A stretch of DNA of 64,000 bases from a bacterium (GTDB lineage Bacteria > Planctomycetota > Planctomycetia > Planctomycetales > Planctomycetaceae). The position numbers and the translations under genes are program-made. Under the pieces are notes generated by a model. That model did not search any database. It worked only from the letters and a program-made list of their open reading frames with translations, and was not told where the DNA came from. This document shows positions 36,373-45,436 of this stretch, piece after piece. Location of the stretch: positions 124,001 to 188,000 of the forward strand of contig WGME01000009.1 in the NCBI GenBank assembly GCA_016125225.1. The letters run 5' to 3'. Each line of letters begins with the position of its first letter. Position 1 is the first letter of the stretch.

Positions 36373-36401
36373 TTGCCGAGCAGTGACCACACGTCTATCA
36401 T
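36373..36401 (+). promoter_or_regulatory. Predicted sigma70-type promoter for the 36.4-45.4 kb operon
   Basis: TTGCCG (four of six), a 17-bp spacer and TATCAT (five of six) end about 50 bp before the ATG at 36454. Transcription would begin near 36408. This position also argues against a start codon upstream of 36454, since the longer frame would begin inside the -35 box. Confidence 0.5.
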
Positions 36402-36453
36402 GTGGGGAAGTATGACGAGGTCGCAAATCGCGATCCCCTTTGGAGACTGGGCT

Positions 36454-38121
36454 ATGCCGACCGCTCCGCACTCATTCCAATTGCTCAAGCACGTGGGTCG
36501 CCGGTTGCGTCTGCAATCCTTCGTGACCACCTTGCACTGGTCGCTGATCATCACATGCGGGGTCTACCTGGCCGCTTTGTTGATGAGCCGGTTGACGGGC
36601 CTGTTTCCGGAATGGTTCTCACCGATGTCACTGGTGACGATTCCGGTTGTGGCCTTGGTCAGTGCCGTGGTGTTGCATCGGCGGCCGGGGTTGCGAGACG
36701 CCGCCCGTGTGGTGGATCAGTCGTCGGGCGTTCGTGATCTCTATCTCACTTTATCGCTGCTGGAGACAGCGGCCGGGGAATATCAGCCGCTGGTGGTGCA
36801 GGCCGCCGAATCGCAAGCTCCGAAGGTGCAACCCGCACGCGTGGTGCCTCTGACCTGGCAACGCCGTCATTGGCAAGCCGTCGCCTTCGCTGGCGTGGTG
36901 GCTCTCGCGATGGTCTTCCTGCCGCAACTCGACCCGTTCGGCAAAGTGGCAGCGGCGTCTTTGTCGACAGAACGGCAAGACCGGCTCAATGACAGCCGTG
37001 TCGCGACGCAGCTTCGAATTGCGGAAATCAAAAAGGGCGCCGATGAGCTCGGCGAAGCCACCGAAGCTGACCAATCGATCGACCAGCTCAAGCTGACTTT
37101 CAATAAGATGCAACCGCAAGAGAAACGGTTGAACATGGAATCGCTGATGGATCGTCAGCGGGAACTGGCCGACCAATGGAAAAAGCTCGCGACCGATCCT
37201 CTGCAGAACCTGCTCAAGGCGGACCGGCAGGCGCAGCAACAGTTCGGTCAGGCTGAGGAAGAACTCTTGCAGAAGTGGAACAAAGAGTTGCAATCGGGTT
37301 CCACGGAGGGGCTGCAACAGGAACTGCAATCGCTGAAAGATCAGCTGCAGAAACTCGCGAAGGCTCAAGACCCGCTGGAGAAGCAGGAGCTGCAGAAGAA
37401 GATTCAGAAGAAGTTGGAAACCTTGGAAAAATTCGCCCAGAAGAACTTGGATTCCAAGCCCCTCGCGTCGGCATTACAGCGGGCGATGCAGCAGATGGAT
37501 TTGTCGAGTCTCGACAACCTGTCGTCGGAAGCGCTCGAAGGGGCCATGGAATCCCTGGAACTCTCCGAGATGGAGCTCGAAGACCTGGCTAAAACGGCGC
37601 AGGAGCTGAAGAAGCTGGAAGAAGCTCTCAAAACCCTACGCATGGCGAAGCGTCTCAACGACCATGAGAAGCTCGACGGTAAGGAATGCCAGAAGTGCAA
37701 ATCGCTTAGCGACTATGAAAAGCTCTATCGAGAAATGCTGTCCAAGTGCGAAGGCGGCCAATGCCAGGGCAAAGGCAAATGTGCCGGTTGCGGCCAATGC
37801 CAGGGCGGCAACGGTAATGGCGCGGGAATGGGGGGCCGTGGTATCGGCGAAGGCAATATCGCTCCCGAAGACAACAGCATCACCACCGAGTTTCAAACCG
37901 AACAATCCAAGTCGGCCGTGACCGCTGGGAAAGTCCTCCTCTCCATGAAATCGAAAGGTCAGGGGGAACGAGGCAACGTCGCAGTCGATTATCAGCAACT
38001 GGTCAATCAAGTAAAACTCGGCGTCAGCGAAGCCATTCTGCAAGAACAGGTGCCGCCCGGTTATCACGACCAGATCAAGAAGTACTTCGACGCGTTGGAA
38101 CCGGCGGATGCCCCGAAATAA
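36454..38121 (+). CDS. Coiled-coil membrane protein with Cys/Gly-rich segment
   Basis: About 555 residues from the ATG at 36454, which has GGAG eight bases upstream. Two N-terminal membrane segments at about 25-75 (LHWSLIITCGVYLAALLM; MSLVTIPVVALVSAVVLH) and one near 140 (AVAFAGVVALAMVFLP) are followed by some 220 residues of Glu/Lys/Gln/Leu-rich coiled coil, then a Cys/Gly-rich patch (CQKCKSL, then CEGGQCQGKGKCAGCGQCQGG) that looks like a metal- or redox-binding knot, and a conserved C-terminal domain (EQVPPGYHDQIKKYF). The family occurs in planctomycete clusters with MoxR ATPases and von Willebrand A proteins. It overlaps the ABC binding-protein gene by 14 bp. Function unknown; an envelope complex with the VWA protein is an inference. 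Confidence 0.85.
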   Translation: MPTAPHSFQLLKHVGRRLRLQSFVTTLHWSLIITCGVYLAALLMSRLTGLFPEWFSPMSLVTIPVVALVSAVVLHRRPGLRDAARVVDQSSGVRDLYLTLSLLETAAGEYQPLVVQAAESQAPKVQPARVVPLTWQRRHWQAVAFAGVVALAMVFLPQLDPFGKVAAASLSTERQDRLNDSRVATQLRIAEIKKGADELGEATEADQSIDQLKLTFNKMQPQEKRLNMESLMDRQRELADQWKKLATDPLQNLLKADRQAQQQFGQAEEELLQKWNKELQSGSTEGLQQELQSLKDQLQKLAKAQDPLEKQELQKKIQKKLETLEKFAQKNLDSKPLASALQRAMQQMDLSSLDNLSSEALEGAMESLELSEMELEDLAKTAQELKKLEEALKTLRMAKRLNDHEKLDGKECQKCKSLSDYEKLYREMLSKCEGGQCQGKGKCAGCGQCQGGNGNGAGMGGRGIGEGNIAPEDNSITTEFQTEQSKSAVTAGKVLLSMKSKGQGERGNVAVDYQQLVNQVKLGVSEAILQEQVPPGYHDQIKKYFDALEPADAPK

Positions 38122-39130
38122 CGCTGGTCCATTAGCTCTTCTGGCGAGTGTCTCTGCGGTCGTGTTACTCGTGCTCTGGTGGAGCACTTCGTCGACCTCC
38201 GCGCTCGTCGTCTACTGTGCGCACGACGCCGTGTACTCCGACGAAATTCTGGAAGAATTCGAACGGCAGACCGGCATTCAAGTCGAACCCCGTTTTGATA
38301 CGGAAGCCACCAAATCGCTGGGTCTGGTGCAGCTCATTCAGCGGGAACGGGCTCATCCGCAATGCGATGTGATCTGGAACAACGAGCTTCTCGGCACGTT
38401 GGCCTTGCAGGCTGAGGGATTGCTGGAACCCTACCAGGGCCCAGGCTGGGAACGCATCCCTCCGAAGTTTCGAGATCCGCAGGGAAACTGGGTGGGCATT
38501 GGCGCACGGTTGCGGGTCTGGATTGTCAATCACCGGCAGATGACCGCCAGCGAATCCGACATCGCTCAACTGCTGGAACTGGAACCCAGCCGCATCGCCA
38601 TGGCCCAACCGATGTTCGGTACTACGTTGACACATTACTGCGTCCTCGCGCGGGAATGGGGACTGCCTCGGTTGCAGGAATGGCACGCCGACCTTCGCCT
38701 GCGCGATCTCCGTGAAGTCCCTGGAAATGGTTTGGTGAAAGACCTGGTGGCCGCAGGAACGTGTGATGCCGGTTGGACCGATACCGACGATACCTTCGTG
38801 GCCAAGGACGCCGGGTTCCCCGTTGATATGCTGCCCATTCGCGTGTCCAGGCAAACCATCGCCATCCCCAACACCGTGGCCATCATTCGCGGCACGAAGC
38901 ATCGCCAGGAAGCCGAGCAACTGGTCGACTTCTTGACTTCGAAAGAGATCGAGTTGCGACTGGCGAAGTCGACCGCTCGGCAGATTCCCCTCGGCCCAAC
39001 GGAAGCCGGTGAACTACCAGACGATGTCCGGCAACTGGCCACCTGGGCCAGCGAATCGGTCGAACTGGGCGATCTGTTACCCATCCGCGGGCAAGTGCTC
39101 GATTGGTTACGGCAGGAGTACGCCCCGTGA
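38108..39130 (+). CDS. Iron(III)-type ABC transporter substrate-binding protein
   Basis: 340 residues. A single N-terminal hydrophobic stretch (LLASVSAVVLLVLWWSTS) without a lipobox anchors or exports it. The mature part begins VVYCAHDAVYSDEILEEFE, a close match to the start of FbpA/FutA-type periplasmic iron-binding proteins and their relatives that import thiamine or polyamines, followed by QCDVIWNNELLGTLAL and TDDTFVAKDAGFPVD. The paired tyrosines that bind Fe(III) near the C-terminus in FbpA are not evident, so the cargo may differ. It overlaps its neighbours (14 bp upstream, GTGA downstream), so all are made from one transcript. Confidence 0.88.
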   Translation: MPRNNAGPLALLASVSAVVLLVLWWSTSSTSALVVYCAHDAVYSDEILEEFERQTGIQVEPRFDTEATKSLGLVQLIQRERAHPQCDVIWNNELLGTLALQAEGLLEPYQGPGWERIPPKFRDPQGNWVGIGARLRVWIVNHRQMTASESDIAQLLELEPSRIAMAQPMFGTTLTHYCVLAREWGLPRLQEWHADLRLRDLREVPGNGLVKDLVAAGTCDAGWTDTDDTFVAKDAGFPVDMLPIRVSRQTIAIPNTVAIIRGTKHRQEAEQLVDFLTSKEIELRLAKSTARQIPLGPTEAGELPDDVRQLATWASESVELGDLLPIRGQVLDWLRQEYAP

Positions 39131-40518
39131 CCTACACGGTGGCCGTGTGGGGCACGCTGGTCCGCGCGGTGCTCGTCACCCTCGCTGCCTGGCCCGTGGT
39201 GCAGAACCTCGAAGCCTGGGTCTCGTCGGTTGATGGATCGCCCCGTCGCTGGCGGTTAGCAGCCGTGCTGTTGCCGTTTTTGTTCCCCGAACTCTTGGTC
39301 GGCTATGCCTATGCCCCGGCCGTCGCCGGTCTGCCAATACCAGCCGAAATCGCCACCAAGTTGCTCCTGATCATTCGCATCATTCCCGTGGGGGTGGTGG
39401 CGCGGATGCTGACGCCGACCACGCTGGTGACGCCCTCCGCCATCCACTGTCGACGTCTACAACTGCGCACCTGGCATGACCGTTATCAACTGTGGCGGTT
39501 GTGGTGCCTCGGCCCGCTGCGGCAAGCTTGTCCGGCCCTCATGCTGATGCTGCTCGTCAACTTTCAGGAGTTCGAACTGGCGGCGTTACTGAAGTCGACC
39601 AGTTGGACCGACTGGCTGTTCGTGCAACAAGTCGGGGGACTCTCGCTGGGAGCCTCATTGCAGGCCTGTGGGCTGCCCTTGCTGTTGCAACTGGCGATGA
39701 TTGGTGTGGCCATTGTGGCCGTCGAACGAACCCCTTTGGTTCCGGGATCGACGACCCCGGGCGTTGCTCCGCGCGCTCACTCCCGAGCAGCCGTCGTCCT
39801 GCTGGGTTTGATGTGGATCTTTGGCATTGTCATTCCCGCAGGAGTCTTGGTCGCAGGCTTGCCAACAGGGCTTTGGCAACTGGCTGGGCAACCCTCGCGT
39901 GGACAGGGATTGATTCGCGAAATGCTGACGGGCCTGGCTGTCGCAGGGGCTGCGGCTTCCGCAGCTTGGGTTGCCGCGGGAGTCTTCATCACTCGGTTCC
40001 GACGTCCGGTCATCGGTTTGGTGTGTTGCCTGCCGGGTCTGCTGGGCTCACTGATCCTCGGGCTCGCACTGGTGGCGATGTTTCAATGGCCACTCCTTGC
40101 GTGGGTCTATGCCACTCCCGTACGCTGGTTAATCGGAGCCTCGCTGGCAACATTACCCCGCGCCATGTTGCTGAGACTTTGGCTCGAGCGAAATCAGACC
40201 GCCGGACTGCATTTGTCACAGCTACTCAGTGATTCCCCAATTGCAGCACAACGCCGTCAGGGTCAGCAACTTCATTGGCGACTGGTCGAACAACCCATCG
40301 CCTTGGCCCTTGGACTATTAACCTGCTGGAGTTACCTGGACCTGACGACGGCGTATCTGCTCGCCCCGAATGGGATGCCGTCTGGCATGGTGCGGTTGTA
40401 CAATTTCATGCACTTCGGACGGACCAGTGCCCTGTCGGCCGAAGCCCTGGTGCTGATGGTCGGACCTTGGGGGTTGATGTGGGGGCTGGCACGACTCTGG
40501 CGAGGACTTCGTTCGTGA
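39127..40518 (+). CDS. ABC transporter permease, FbpB/ThiP type
   Basis: 463 residues from the GTG at 39127, which shares GTGA with the upstream stop. At least ten hydrophobic segments are visible in two halves (for example LAAVLLPFLFPELLVGYAYA; AVVLLGLMWIFGIVIPAGVL; VIGLVCCLPGLLGSLILGLAL), the double-permease layout of FbpB and ThiP. The EAA loop that contacts the ATPase is recognisable in the first half (RLWCLGPLRQACPALML), weaker in the second. It should form the channel for the binding protein just upstream. Its stop again overlaps the ATPase start as GTGA. Confidence 0.9.
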   Translation: MTYTVAVWGTLVRAVLVTLAAWPVVQNLEAWVSSVDGSPRRWRLAAVLLPFLFPELLVGYAYAPAVAGLPIPAEIATKLLLIIRIIPVGVVARMLTPTTLVTPSAIHCRRLQLRTWHDRYQLWRLWCLGPLRQACPALMLMLLVNFQEFELAALLKSTSWTDWLFVQQVGGLSLGASLQACGLPLLLQLAMIGVAIVAVERTPLVPGSTTPGVAPRAHSRAAVVLLGLMWIFGIVIPAGVLVAGLPTGLWQLAGQPSRGQGLIREMLTGLAVAGAAASAAWVAAGVFITRFRRPVIGLVCCLPGLLGSLILGLALVAMFQWPLLAWVYATPVRWLIGASLATLPRAMLLRLWLERNQTAGLHLSQLLSDSPIAAQRRQGQQLHWRLVEQPIALALGLLTCWSYLDLTTAYLLAPNGMPSGMVRLYNFMHFGRTSALSAEALVLMVGPWGLMWGLARLWRGLRS

Positions 40519-42353
40519 CCCCCGATGACCTCTGGGAATTCGATGCGGTCACGCTCGCTGGCGGCACACGGCCCCGGTTAGATCAGATCACGTGTTCCAT
40601 CCCGCATGGAGTCACGGCGATCCTGGGCCCCTCTGGCTCAGGCAAGACGTCGTTGCTGAATCTGCTGGTCGGCTTTGAACAACCGACTGCCGGACGCCTG
40701 AAGGCAGCCGCGCCAGATGCTACTCGGCTGCCCTTGTTCTGGAGTCCTGCCGATCATGGCTTGTGGCCTCATCTGACGGTCGCGGAACACATCACGGCGG
40801 TGGGTGCGCCAGCCACAAACAACTGGCTGGAACGGTTTGAATTGACGTCTGTAGCCACGGCCTCTCCGGCGACACTTTCGCTCGGCGAACGCTCTCGACT
40901 CAGTGTTGCCAGGGCTTTAGCCACAGAGGCCGCGATCATCGTTCTCGATGAGCCGCTGGCTCATATCGATGCCCCACGCACCGCACGCTGCTGGCAACAG
41001 ATTCGACAAGTCGTAGAAGAACGCGAACTGTCGCTCGTCTTTTCCACACACGATCCGCAAGTGGCGATGCGTGAAGCCGACTGGTGCCTGCTGTTGTCCG
41101 AGGGGCGTTGTCTGGCAGCGGGCACGCCGCAGGAACTGTATCATTACCCGCTGACGCGCGAAATTGCCGAACTGTTAGGCCCCATCACCTGGTTGACACA
41201 GGATGAATGGGATGTGTGGTTTGATCGAATGCCGTTGCCGGAAACGGCATTTCCCGGCGGTGTGCGAATACGGCCGCATCAGCTCGGCATTGAACCCTGT
41301 GCTCAAAGTCCGATCGAAGTAGTCCAGGCCGATTTTGTCGGCAGTCGCGAAGAAGTCCGCTTGCGGCACCGAGCCACGGGACAGCAACTGACGACGGCCT
41401 ATCAACCCGCACAACCAACCTTGCAACCGGGTCACACCGTGCGATTAGTCTGGCTCGCGTTGCTGCTCTGCCTGCTCTGGCTTCCTGGATGTGGTAGCTC
41501 TGCGACCGATCCAGAGTTGTCGGTCACTCATGAGACCTATTGGTCTCCGCCGCCGGAAGGCCTGAAGATTCCTGCCCCTCGTGCGGTCACCGCGGCCCCC
41601 GACAATCAGGTGTATGTTCTGGACAATGCCGGTCGCATCCTGGTTTTCAATGATCATGGCCAAGTGCAAAAGTCCTGGTTCATGCCCGAGTACAGCGTCG
41701 GTAAGCCCGAACGCATTCTGGTCACGAGCACGGGCGAACTCGTCATTGCCGACACGCATTACCACCGGATCGTCGTCTTCAACCAGCAGGGCGAAGTGCT
41801 GCGGATGTTTGGCCGAAAAGGCGAAGCCCCCGGCGAGTTCATTTATCCCGTAGCCGTGGCGGAAGATGATCGTGGGCAACTTTATGTGTGCGAATATGGC
41901 GGCCACGATCGCGTGCAGATCTTCCGCCCCGATGGCACTTATGTCTCGGAATTTGGCAGCTTCGGGACCGCTGCCGGACAGTTTCAACGACCGAGTGGCA
42001 TCGTCTGGCAGGATGGTCGACTCTACATTGCCGACGCGTTCAACAATCGCATCCATGTTGTCGATGAACAAGGGCAACCCGTGCCGCTCGATCCGCAGGC
42101 GTTCGCGGCCGATCTGCATTACCCCTACGATATCGCCCTCGGTCCGCAGGGGCATTTCTTTGTGGTGGAATACGGAGCTGGCCGGGTGACACGGTTTTCC
42201 GCCGAAGGTGCATTGCTGGGGCGGTATGGTCATTCCGGTGCGGATGAGGGAGAATTCAGCACGCCGTGGGGTCTGAGTGTGATGCCCGATGGTCGCGTGT
42301 TAGTGGCTGATACAGGCAACCGGCGGATCGTGGAACTGACACCGGCGAATTGA
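40515..42353 (+). CDS. ABC transporter ATPase fused in frame to a membrane segment and NHL-repeat propeller
   Basis: 612 residues from the GTG at 40515 (GTGA overlap). Residues 1-305 are an ABC ATPase: Walker A GPSGSGKTS, signature LSLGERSRLSVARAL (LSGGQ changed to LSLGE), Walker B AIIVLDEPLAHID, H-loop FSTHDP, then a TOBE-like end. The usual Q-loop Gln is absent (FWSPADHGLWPHLTV). At about 310 comes a hydrophobic run ending in a lipobox-like LPGC (RLVWLALLLCLLWLPGC), followed by four or five NHL blades to the end (GEFIYPVAVAEDDRGQLYV; GQFQRPSGIVWQDGRLYIA). No stop separates the parts. Either this is a true fusion carrying an external propeller, or a GTG at 41439 starts an independent lipoprotein within the same frame. 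Confidence 0.88.
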   Translation: MTPDDLWEFDAVTLAGGTRPRLDQITCSIPHGVTAILGPSGSGKTSLLNLLVGFEQPTAGRLKAAAPDATRLPLFWSPADHGLWPHLTVAEHITAVGAPATNNWLERFELTSVATASPATLSLGERSRLSVARALATEAAIIVLDEPLAHIDAPRTARCWQQIRQVVEERELSLVFSTHDPQVAMREADWCLLLSEGRCLAAGTPQELYHYPLTREIAELLGPITWLTQDEWDVWFDRMPLPETAFPGGVRIRPHQLGIEPCAQSPIEVVQADFVGSREEVRLRHRATGQQLTTAYQPAQPTLQPGHTVRLVWLALLLCLLWLPGCGSSATDPELSVTHETYWSPPPEGLKIPAPRAVTAAPDNQVYVLDNAGRILVFNDHGQVQKSWFMPEYSVGKPERILVTSTGELVIADTHYHRIVVFNQQGEVLRMFGRKGEAPGEFIYPVAVAEDDRGQLYVCEYGGHDRVQIFRPDGTYVSEFGSFGTAAGQFQRPSGIVWQDGRLYIADAFNNRIHVVDEQGQPVPLDPQAFAADLHYPYDIALGPQGHFFVVEYGAGRVTRFSAEGALLGRYGHSGADEGEFSTPWGLSVMPDGRVLVADTGNRRIVELTPAN

Positions 42354-42439: not shown

Positions 42440-45436
42440 GTGAAGTGGATTCAGCAGTTCTGGCATCGACTCTGTCCCGTGCCGCGCAAGCGGTTGACGA
42501 TGTGGGACGGCGTGCCGATCGTGCTGTTTGGTCTGCTGTTCGCTTCGCTGGTCATCGGACTGGAATGGGGCGGGGTGGTGCTGTTTGCCCGACCGCTGGC
42601 CTTCACGCTGTCGGTTTTCGCCATCTGGATCTGGTGGCTGCACGTGGCCGGTTATGGCGGTCTGCCGAAGATTCGCGGGCTAGTCGCCTTGTGGATTCGG
42701 TTCGGAATTTTTGCCCTGCTGGTGATGGTGCTCGCAGAACCCCGGTCGGTCCGCACACGCGATGTCGTCTCTGCCATGTTCCTGGTCGACGTTTCGGATT
42801 CCGTCCGTGGAGACGCAGTCGATAGTGCGATGCGCTATGTCGTGGAGTCTTCCGCCGAAAAGCCTGCGAAAGATGAAATCGGCCTGTTGATTTTCGGAGA
42901 AACACCCGCCGTTGAACAGCCGCCGCGGATGAACTACATCGTTGAAGCAGTGAATTCCCAGGTCGATAAAGGCTCGACGAATGTCGAACAGGCGATGTCC
43001 CTCGCCGCAGCCATGTTACCGGCGGATAACCAGGGACGGCTGGTGGTCATCAGTGACGGCGTCGAGACGGCGGGCAACCTGTCGCGCGTGCTCGATGATC
43101 TGAAATCCCGGGGCATCGCCGTCGATGTCTTGCCGATCGACTATTCCTATGAAGATGAAGTCTGGCTGGAACGAATCGATCTTCCGCAGCAGGTGAAACT
43201 GGGCGAGACATACGAAGCCGCGATGGTGCTGTCTTCTCTGAAGGCCGGTCAGGGTAAACTCACCTTGCGTGAAAACGGAGAAATCATCGCCGAGCAACCG
43301 GTCGAACTTCAGCCCGGGAAGAACCGGTACACCGTGCCGATTACGTTGCGGAATGCGGGCTATTATGAGTACTCCGCGACGATTGAAGTTGATCGGGAAT
43401 ATGACAGTCTGACGCAGAACAACGAAGTGCTCGGATACATCTTCGTCGAAGGCGAAGGCCAGGTGCTGCTGGTCACCGACCCTGCAGGCAGCGAGCAGGA
43501 CTGGCAACGGTTAAAAGAGGTGATTGAACAATCGGAGCGTGCCGTCCGCGTGATCCCGGCCTACGACTTTCCGTCCGACACTGCTGCCTTGTTGCCTTAT
43601 GACTGCATCATCTTCTGCAATGTGCCCCACGATGCGTTCGACTTTGGTCAACTGAATGGCTTGAAAGACGCCGTCTTCAATGTGGGCATCGGTTTCCTGA
43701 TGGTGGGGGGCGATGCGAGCTTTGGTCCGGGGGGCTGGAACCGCACCGTGGTGGAAGAGATTCTGCCGGTGACGATGGACATCTCGAACAAAAAGGTGCT
43801 GCCCAAGGGGGCCCTCGCCATCATCCTGCATACCTGCGAATTCGCTTCCGGCAATACCTGGGCCAAGCGCATCACCAAGCAGGCGATTAAGGTTCTCAAC
43901 AGTCGCGATGAAGCCGGCGTGCTGGCCTATACCAATACCGGCGAAGACTGGATCTTTGAGCTGACGCCGGTCAGTGAGTACGAGAAATTTGCCCCGTTGA
44001 TCGATGGAGCCGAGATCGGCGACATGCCCAGTTTCGCGACCACCATGCAACTCGGGCTGACCGGGTTGCAAAAGAGCGACGCGTCGACCAAGCACATGAT
44101 CATCATTTCGGATGGTGATCCTTCGCCCCCCGCTCCCGAACTGCTCGGCCAGTTTGTCGCTGGCAAGATCAGCGTCTCCACCGTCGCGGTCTTCCCTCAT
44201 GGGGGATTTGAAGAGACCTCGCTGCAGTCGATCGCCGGGGCCACGGGGGGCCGGTATTACTTTGTGAACGACAACCCCGATGTGCTCCCTGCGATCTTCA
44301 TTAAAGAGTCGAAGACGCTGAAGCGGAGCATGCTTCAGAACAAGATCTTCACGCCAGAAGTCAGCTTTGCTTCCCCGGTGCTCAAAGGCATCACCGAACT
44401 GCCGGAACTCAAGGGCTACGTGATTACCTCGGCCAAATCGTCGCCCGCCATGACGATTCTGAACGCGCCGCCCGATGAACAAGACCCCTCGCAGCAAGAT
44501 CCGATCCTCGCCATCTGGCAACATGGCCTGGGAAAAACCGCGGCGTTCACATCGGACCTGTCGCCAAAGTGGGCCGCCAACTGGCAAGACTGGAACGAGT
44601 TTCAGGTCTTCATCAAGCAGTTGCTCATCGATATCTCACGCGTGCAGAAATCGGGGGAACTGCGGCTCTCCACATATACGACCGGAAATCAGGCGGTCAT
44701 TGTCGCGGAAGATTTTCATCCCGATGAAAGCTTCCTGGAAGTGCAGGCTCAACTCTCGGGGCCGGATGGCAAAAGTGAATCGGTCACCTTGCAACAGGTT
44801 TCACCCCGTCGGTATCAGGCGACGGTTCCGTTGTGGGGTCATGGTCGGTATCACGCCGTTGCGAGCAGCACCGGCGGCGGCCGCAAGGAGCAGGCCTTTG
44901 GTGGTTTCATCGTCCCTTATTCTCCCGAATATCTTCGCTTCCGTTCGAACCGCCAGACGTTGACCGAAATCGCGGAACGGACAGGGGGGCGATTGCTCAC
45001 CGGTGAGTCCAAGCAGGACGACGTTTACCACGCCGGTCGCGAAGTGAAACAGACCACGCGGCCGATCTTCGACTGGTTTCTCATCGCCTTGGTGTGTCTC
45101 ATTCCACTCGATGTCGCCATCCGTCGGATTCAAATCGATCTGTCTGCGATCACGTCTCTATTCCGGCGCAAACGTGTGGAGCAACGAGCGACCATGGGCA
45201 CCTTGCTCGAACGCAAACAGCAGGTACAGACCACGCTGGAACGCAAACCCGAACGCCCACTGAGCCCGCCCAGCACACCCGTCAAACCGAAGCCGCCGCG
45301 ATCAGCCACGACACCAGCGGCTCAAACACCCACATCGCCGCCCCCCCCCGCGACGCCAACGGATGGTCAAAGCCAACCCGAATCGACCATGGAACGCTTG
45401 CTGAGAATGAAGAAGCAACGCGAAGAAGAGAAGTAG
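42440..45436 (+). CDS. Large membrane protein with von Willebrand A and glutamine-amidotransferase-like domains
   Basis: 998 residues from a GTG at 42440 (an ATG at 42500 is the alternative). Two N-terminal membrane helices (IVLFGLLFASLVIGLEWGGV; FGIFALLVMVLAEP) precede a VWA domain with a metal-site DVSDSVRGD near 117 and VISDGVETAG near 198. A Rossmann-like class-I amidotransferase-type domain follows (FLMVGGDASFGPGGW), with no catalytic Cys evident, and a second VWA-like part with IIISDGDPSPP near 555. A late membrane helix (PIFDWFLIALVCLIPLDVAI) and a Pro-rich basic tail end it. VWA domains bind proteins through a metal ion; clusters with MoxR ATPases use them in complex assembly. It closes the operon begun at 36.4 kb and ends convergent with a secreted protein. 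Confidence 0.9.
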   Translation: MKWIQQFWHRLCPVPRKRLTMWDGVPIVLFGLLFASLVIGLEWGGVVLFARPLAFTLSVFAIWIWWLHVAGYGGLPKIRGLVALWIRFGIFALLVMVLAEPRSVRTRDVVSAMFLVDVSDSVRGDAVDSAMRYVVESSAEKPAKDEIGLLIFGETPAVEQPPRMNYIVEAVNSQVDKGSTNVEQAMSLAAAMLPADNQGRLVVISDGVETAGNLSRVLDDLKSRGIAVDVLPIDYSYEDEVWLERIDLPQQVKLGETYEAAMVLSSLKAGQGKLTLRENGEIIAEQPVELQPGKNRYTVPITLRNAGYYEYSATIEVDREYDSLTQNNEVLGYIFVEGEGQVLLVTDPAGSEQDWQRLKEVIEQSERAVRVIPAYDFPSDTAALLPYDCIIFCNVPHDAFDFGQLNGLKDAVFNVGIGFLMVGGDASFGPGGWNRTVVEEILPVTMDISNKKVLPKGALAIILHTCEFASGNTWAKRITKQAIKVLNSRDEAGVLAYTNTGEDWIFELTPVSEYEKFAPLIDGAEIGDMPSFATTMQLGLTGLQKSDASTKHMIIISDGDPSPPAPELLGQFVAGKISVSTVAVFPHGGFEETSLQSIAGATGGRYYFVNDNPDVLPAIFIKESKTLKRSMLQNKIFTPEVSFASPVLKGITELPELKGYVITSAKSSPAMTILNAPPDEQDPSQQDPILAIWQHGLGKTAAFTSDLSPKWAANWQDWNEFQVFIKQLLIDISRVQKSGELRLSTYTTGNQAVIVAEDFHPDESFLEVQAQLSGPDGKSESVTLQQVSPRRYQATVPLWGHGRYHAVASSTGGGRKEQAFGGFIVPYSPEYLRFRSNRQTLTEIAERTGGRLLTGESKQDDVYHAGREVKQTTRPIFDWFLIALVCLIPLDVAIRRIQIDLSAITSLFRRKRVEQRATMGTLLERKQQVQTTLERKPERPLSPPSTPVKPKPPRSATTPAAQTPTSPPPPATPTDGQSQPESTMERLLRMKKQREEEK

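Follow-up and report, generated by a model that had tools for sequence, protein, structure and literature searches.

A probable bacterial polyprotein in Planctomycetes joining an FbpC-like ABC ATPase to an NHL-propeller lipoprotein

The FbcH cytochrome b/c1 polyprotein of Bradyrhizobium japonicum, attributed to Thony-Meyer and co-workers (1989 and 1991), is reportedly encoded by one gene with an internal signal sequence and processed by signal peptidase into two mature proteins, while its equivalents in other species are said to be encoded by two genes. To our knowledge bacterial polyproteins cut by a signal peptidase are rare, and we know of none that is cut by signal peptidase II after a soluble cytoplasmic enzyme. 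In transporters of the MalK/FbpC type the TOBE domain is positioned away from the membrane, and the known FbpC, the ATPase of FbpABC-type ferric iron importers, stops after this domain. A further related design is PknD (Mbk) of Mycobacterium tuberculosis, encoded in the pst phosphate-importer operon and described as a membrane-spanning receptor in which a transmembrane segment joins a kinase to an NHL domain (PMC1262709).

The locus analysed here resembles each of these systems in part. An internal signal within one reading frame and the presence of separate genes in relatives are shared with FbcH; in FbcH, however, a membrane cytochrome is separated from an exported one by signal peptidase I, whereas the putative cleavage here would be at a signal peptidase II lipobox that follows a soluble cytoplasmic ATPase. 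With the FbpABC-type importers (FbpC; Thermus thermophilus FbpBC, 9j4r) it shares the ATPase fold with its TOBE domain, as well as an iron-type binding protein and a probable permease in the operon, but the ATPase continues into a signal and a propeller. A cytoplasmic nucleotide-using domain, a hydrophobic segment, external NHL repeats and an adjoining ABC importer are common to PknD and the present protein; PknD, in contrast, is a protein kinase and not an ABC ATPase, is described without a lipobox, and differs in that the link between the two parts is absent in many relatives of the fusion.

Features of the window (the whole stretch of 64,000 nucleotides that was analysed) are listed in Table 1. 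The frame of the fusion gene contains no stop other than the terminal one, and it is open upstream of GTG 40515 as far as TTG 40275. GTG 40515, however, agrees with the starts of the homologues; it overlaps the permease stop (40518) by 4 nt (GTGA), as expected inside an operon. Pfam matches follow one another along the protein in the order ABC_tran (residues 23-149, 1.4e-21), TOBE_2 (residues 252-314, 21.5 bits, just over the cut-off of 21) and NHL (4.4e-25), and a hydrophobic segment that includes LPGC occupies residues 309-326. An AlphaFold model was built from a 68-row alignment (mean pLDDT 94; pTM 0.55, too low to fix how the domains sit relative to one another) and contains a propeller besides a nucleotide-binding domain with its TOBE domain. 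No linker separates the final TOBE strand (308-313) from the helix that directly follows it (314-322), and at the lipobox (residues 324-330) pLDDT is below 50. In Foldseek searches the ATPase part matched the T. thermophilus FbpBC ATPase (9j4r_B), TOBE domain included, and the propeller part matched the NHL domains of Thin and TRIM71. Pfam, the high-confidence model and Foldseek thus agree on a six-bladed propeller of NHL repeats.

Table 1. Positions of the fusion gene, its parts and its neighbours in the window.
Feature	Position	Strand	Basis
Extracytoplasmic solute-binding protein, ferric-iron type (probably FbpA-like), same operon, upstream	38108..39130	+	SBP_bac_11/8/6/1
Probable importer permease, 471 residues, hydrophobic	39103..40518	+	Position and hydrophobicity
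Fusion gene: ABC ATPase, predicted internal lipoprotein signal, NHL propeller; 612 residues	40515..42353	+	
FbpC-like ATPase with TOBE domain, residues 1-313	40515..41453	+	
Predicted signal sequence inside the protein, VRLVWLALLLCLLWLPG (residues 309-325), overlapping the last TOBE strand at its start	41439..41489	+	Model, charge-to-Cys span
Lipobox Cys326 codon	41490..41492	+	Cys in 79/79 fused homologues
Six-bladed NHL beta-propeller, residues 337-610	41523..42344	+	Pfam NHL, model, Foldseek
VWA / GATase1-like membrane protein, downstream neighbour	42440..45436	+	

After removal of duplicates, the homologue set comprised 79 fused and 35 split loci, 34 of the latter being scorable for the lipobox. 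The same in-frame junction is found in all 79 fused homologues, mostly 40-57% identical, which span many genera and share kinship, so that counts among them are not independent samples. Four further families of this phylum also yielded frames of the fused length. Comparison of close pairs gave 51, 37 and 167 junction substitutions at codon positions 1, 2 and 3, and this third-position bias indicates that the junction is translated through. A single-frame fusion of ATPase, hydrophobic segment, LPGC and NHL propeller, as proposed in an earlier note made from the sequence of this locus, is therefore confirmed. One fused locus (L021, the same locus as L054) has an in-frame TAA within the ATPase part, reflecting either a sequencing error in a metagenome assembly or decay of the gene.

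All 79 fused homologues have the lipobox Cys; C326 does not vary across the 68 aligned fused proteins, in which G325 and G306 are nearly invariant. The residue preceding the Cys is Gly in 75 homologues, Ser in three and Ala in one (LPGC in the present protein), and position -3 is less strict, with Leu in 28 of the 79. Lys or Arg is found 12-20 residues N-terminal of the Cys in every fused homologue, and between the last charged residue and the Cys there is a span of 11-18 residues (median 13). The segment therefore has the Cys at +1 and small residue at -1 of a lipoprotein, together with a positive n-region and a short h-region; the signal, however, is not N-terminal but internal (residues 309-325), with no conserved internal start. 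In its anatomy the junction segment resembles a lipoprotein signal, yet the protein is no standard lipoprotein precursor. The short span and the invariant Cys make a cleavable lipoprotein signal likelier than a stable membrane anchor. The genome encodes LspA, two Lgt and several M50 proteases.

Our favoured reading, which we regard as probable, is that the gene encodes a polyprotein that is lipidated by Lgt and cut by LspA at C326. The ribosome would produce the ATPase portion first, and the hydrophobic stretch would then act as an internal Sec signal, with the last TOBE strand serving as its positive n-region, through which the propeller would be exported. Lgt would lipidate C326 and LspA would subsequently cleave on its N-terminal side, leaving a cytoplasmic ATPase that initially retains a membrane-inserted C-terminal signal tail. 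This tail may be trimmed by a protease of the S2P/RseP type, a step made plausible by analogy with Escherichia coli, in which RseP clears remnant signal peptides (PMC8144685). The NHL lipoprotein would reside on the external face of the cytoplasmic membrane or farther out, in a 1:1 ratio with the ATPase. As the earlier note had supposed, the propeller almost certainly lies across the membrane from the ATPase. What counts against the polyprotein reading is the unusual distance of 325 residues between the N-terminus and the lipobox. Our literature searches returned no example of LspA acting after a folded cytoplasmic domain, nor a directly relevant report of an internal lipobox, a signal peptidase II polyprotein or a Planctomycetes NHL-ABC fusion; a preprint on lipidated peptides (PMC12636315) deals with an N-terminal signal, and hence offers no precedent. 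The anatomy of the junction and its evolutionary pattern are already demonstrated; it is the cleavage that we infer.

The ATPase and NHL parts are encoded together at 79 loci and by separate genes at 34. The split ATPase/NHL-lipoprotein pairs of other Planctomycetes (for example L100, L110 and L115) amount to the same two proteins from adjacent genes, usually followed by the same VWA gene. The two genes often overlap by 4 nt between start and stop (16 of 34 pairs), and each split propeller begins with a lipobox signal of its own, a hydrophobic sequence ending in GC (34 of 34 cases). Most split ATPases terminate shortly after the same TOBE strand; the TOBE domain is absent in a few split relatives (L026, L076, L174 and L175). 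One genus includes both states: L020 is fused, whereas the split L174, found in a genome assembled as one contig, lacks the TOBE domain and has a different signal sequence. In some genomes the ATPase and propeller genes are found on different contigs. A quick tree was calculated, in which some branches are long (and some of these meet) and the root is uncertain. A single clade containing all fused genes was ruled out by an AU test on this tree (p 0.0003), and its well-supported branches require at least four changes between the fused and split states, which with this root may be fusions or fissions. The conserved feature is an ATPase inside and a lipoprotein outside, rather than the bond that joins them. 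The broader proposal of a conserved polyprotein, in which signal peptidase II would split ATPase and lipoprotein 1:1 and lineages would repeatedly switch between this state and two genes, we hold with confidence only slightly better than even.

An alternative, which we consider unlikely, is that the fusion stays intact and that a transmembrane helix permanently joins the ATPase to an external NHL sensor that regulates import, in the manner of PknD. The kinase-transmembrane-NHL protein of the M. tuberculosis pst operon sets a precedent for such a design (PMC1262709), the fusion is kept across many genera, and the maximum 19-residue hydropathy at the junction (median 2.1) is compatible with a membrane helix. 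An intact anchor, on the other hand, needs no Cys, yet the Cys is found in 79 of 79 homologues with Gly before it in 75, and an uncharged span of just 11-18 residues is short for a transmembrane helix. The absence of a linker between TOBE strand and helix also disagrees with this alternative: with the TOBE domain generally known to lie away from the membrane, an uncut junction would be ill-suited to normal docking, although this is an argument and not a measurement. Moreover, the 34 split relatives keep both parts without a covalent link, even with the genes on different contigs in some genomes. A permanent covalent link between sensing and import is disfavoured because relatives repeatedly do without the link; the bridge coupling external sensing to import that the earlier note had envisaged is thus not upheld, in view of the split relatives, the scattering of the fused genes over more than one clade, and the signal-like span with its invariant Cys.

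The possibility that a second in-frame start at GTG 41439 yields a separate lipoprotein beside the full-length chain, also raised in the earlier note, appears improbable. The product of this start would begin MRLVWLALLLCLLWLPGC, a good lipoprotein signal, and 63 of 79 fused homologues hold some start-like codon in the junction stretch, defined as 30 to 13 codons 5' of the Cys and scored for canonical starts only. That number, however, is close to the 58.6 expected from the residues encoded, and the remaining 16 sequences lack a start codon there; in L157 none occurs across 54 codons 5' of the Cys. At the position of GTG 41439 itself, 11 of 17 aligned homologues carry a codon other than a start (GTC, GTT, GGT or ATC, for example). 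Neither GTG among Val codons (38% in the stretch, 36% elsewhere in the genes), nor TTG among Leu codons (22% and 20%), nor Met among the residues (1.0% and 1.2%) is appreciably enriched. No Shine-Dalgarno-like motif precedes GTG 41439, and such motifs are not enriched before junction start-like codons (9%, against 12% elsewhere in the genes); they are present at 9 of 16 true propeller starts with a 4-nt overlap in the split relatives. Taken together, the start-codon and Shine-Dalgarno statistics indicate that internal initiation is not maintained by selection, and it may occur in single species. The idea of two products from one gene consequently survives by way of probable proteolysis, but not by way of internal initiation. 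Finally, an assembly or sequencing error that erased a stop between two genes, the case that the earlier note had named as refuting the fusion, has nothing in its favour and was rejected as practically excluded, as the in-frame junction recurs in 79 homologues, among which are sequences from single-contig genomes and from isolates (Thalassoglobus neptunius KOR42 and Alienimonas chondri LzC2).

Residues of Walker A, the signature and Walker B (G38, G43, K44, S122, G124, D145 and E146) are present in 68 of 68 fused proteins, and the H-loop H179 in 67 of 68. The Q-loop Gln is replaced by Ala in this ATPase (residue 79, 40749-40751), an odd absence in a residue that is normally conserved. In contrast to the known FbpC, this Gln is mostly replaced in the fused homologues; it is kept by 10 of the 79 fused homologues but by 26 of the 34 split ones, an association with fusion that is strong in raw counts and inseparable from kinship (four supported independent pairs). 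Lacking this residue of FbpC-type importer ATPases, the protein is here named FbpC-like.

The best solved relatives of the upstream binding protein are iron-binding periplasmic proteins (E 1.5e-11). Upstream DNA was sufficient at 32 fused loci; the binding protein is found there in 28, and the position of the probable permease is kept in 30. Searches of Pfam and NCBIfam matched neither of the proteins encoded at 36373-38121 and 39103-40518, even though both hold a conserved place in the cluster across the family. Together with the two upstream genes, the ATPase probably powers an importer of ferric-iron type. Several split lineages (L100, L107, L115 and L117), however, carry the ATPase-NHL-VWA trio without upstream importer genes and with unrelated housekeeping-type genes in their place, which makes the partnership of ATPase and importer less certain there; the importer subunits of these lineages may have their genes at other loci, or the ATPase may serve a different partner. 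The VWA/GATase1-like gene lies downstream at 34 of 36 fused loci, 28 of 29 split loci and 5 of 6 loci with a propeller and no ATPase. As this neighbour is kept even where the ATPase is absent, the VWA protein is the steadiest partner of the propeller, and the two probably work together as a functional pair.

If the polyprotein reading is true, annotation that seeks lipoprotein signals at N-termini alone overlooks proteins of this kind, and the fused and split sister lineages would constitute a natural experiment for asking why a pair of proteins working on opposite sides of the membrane is made as one chain.
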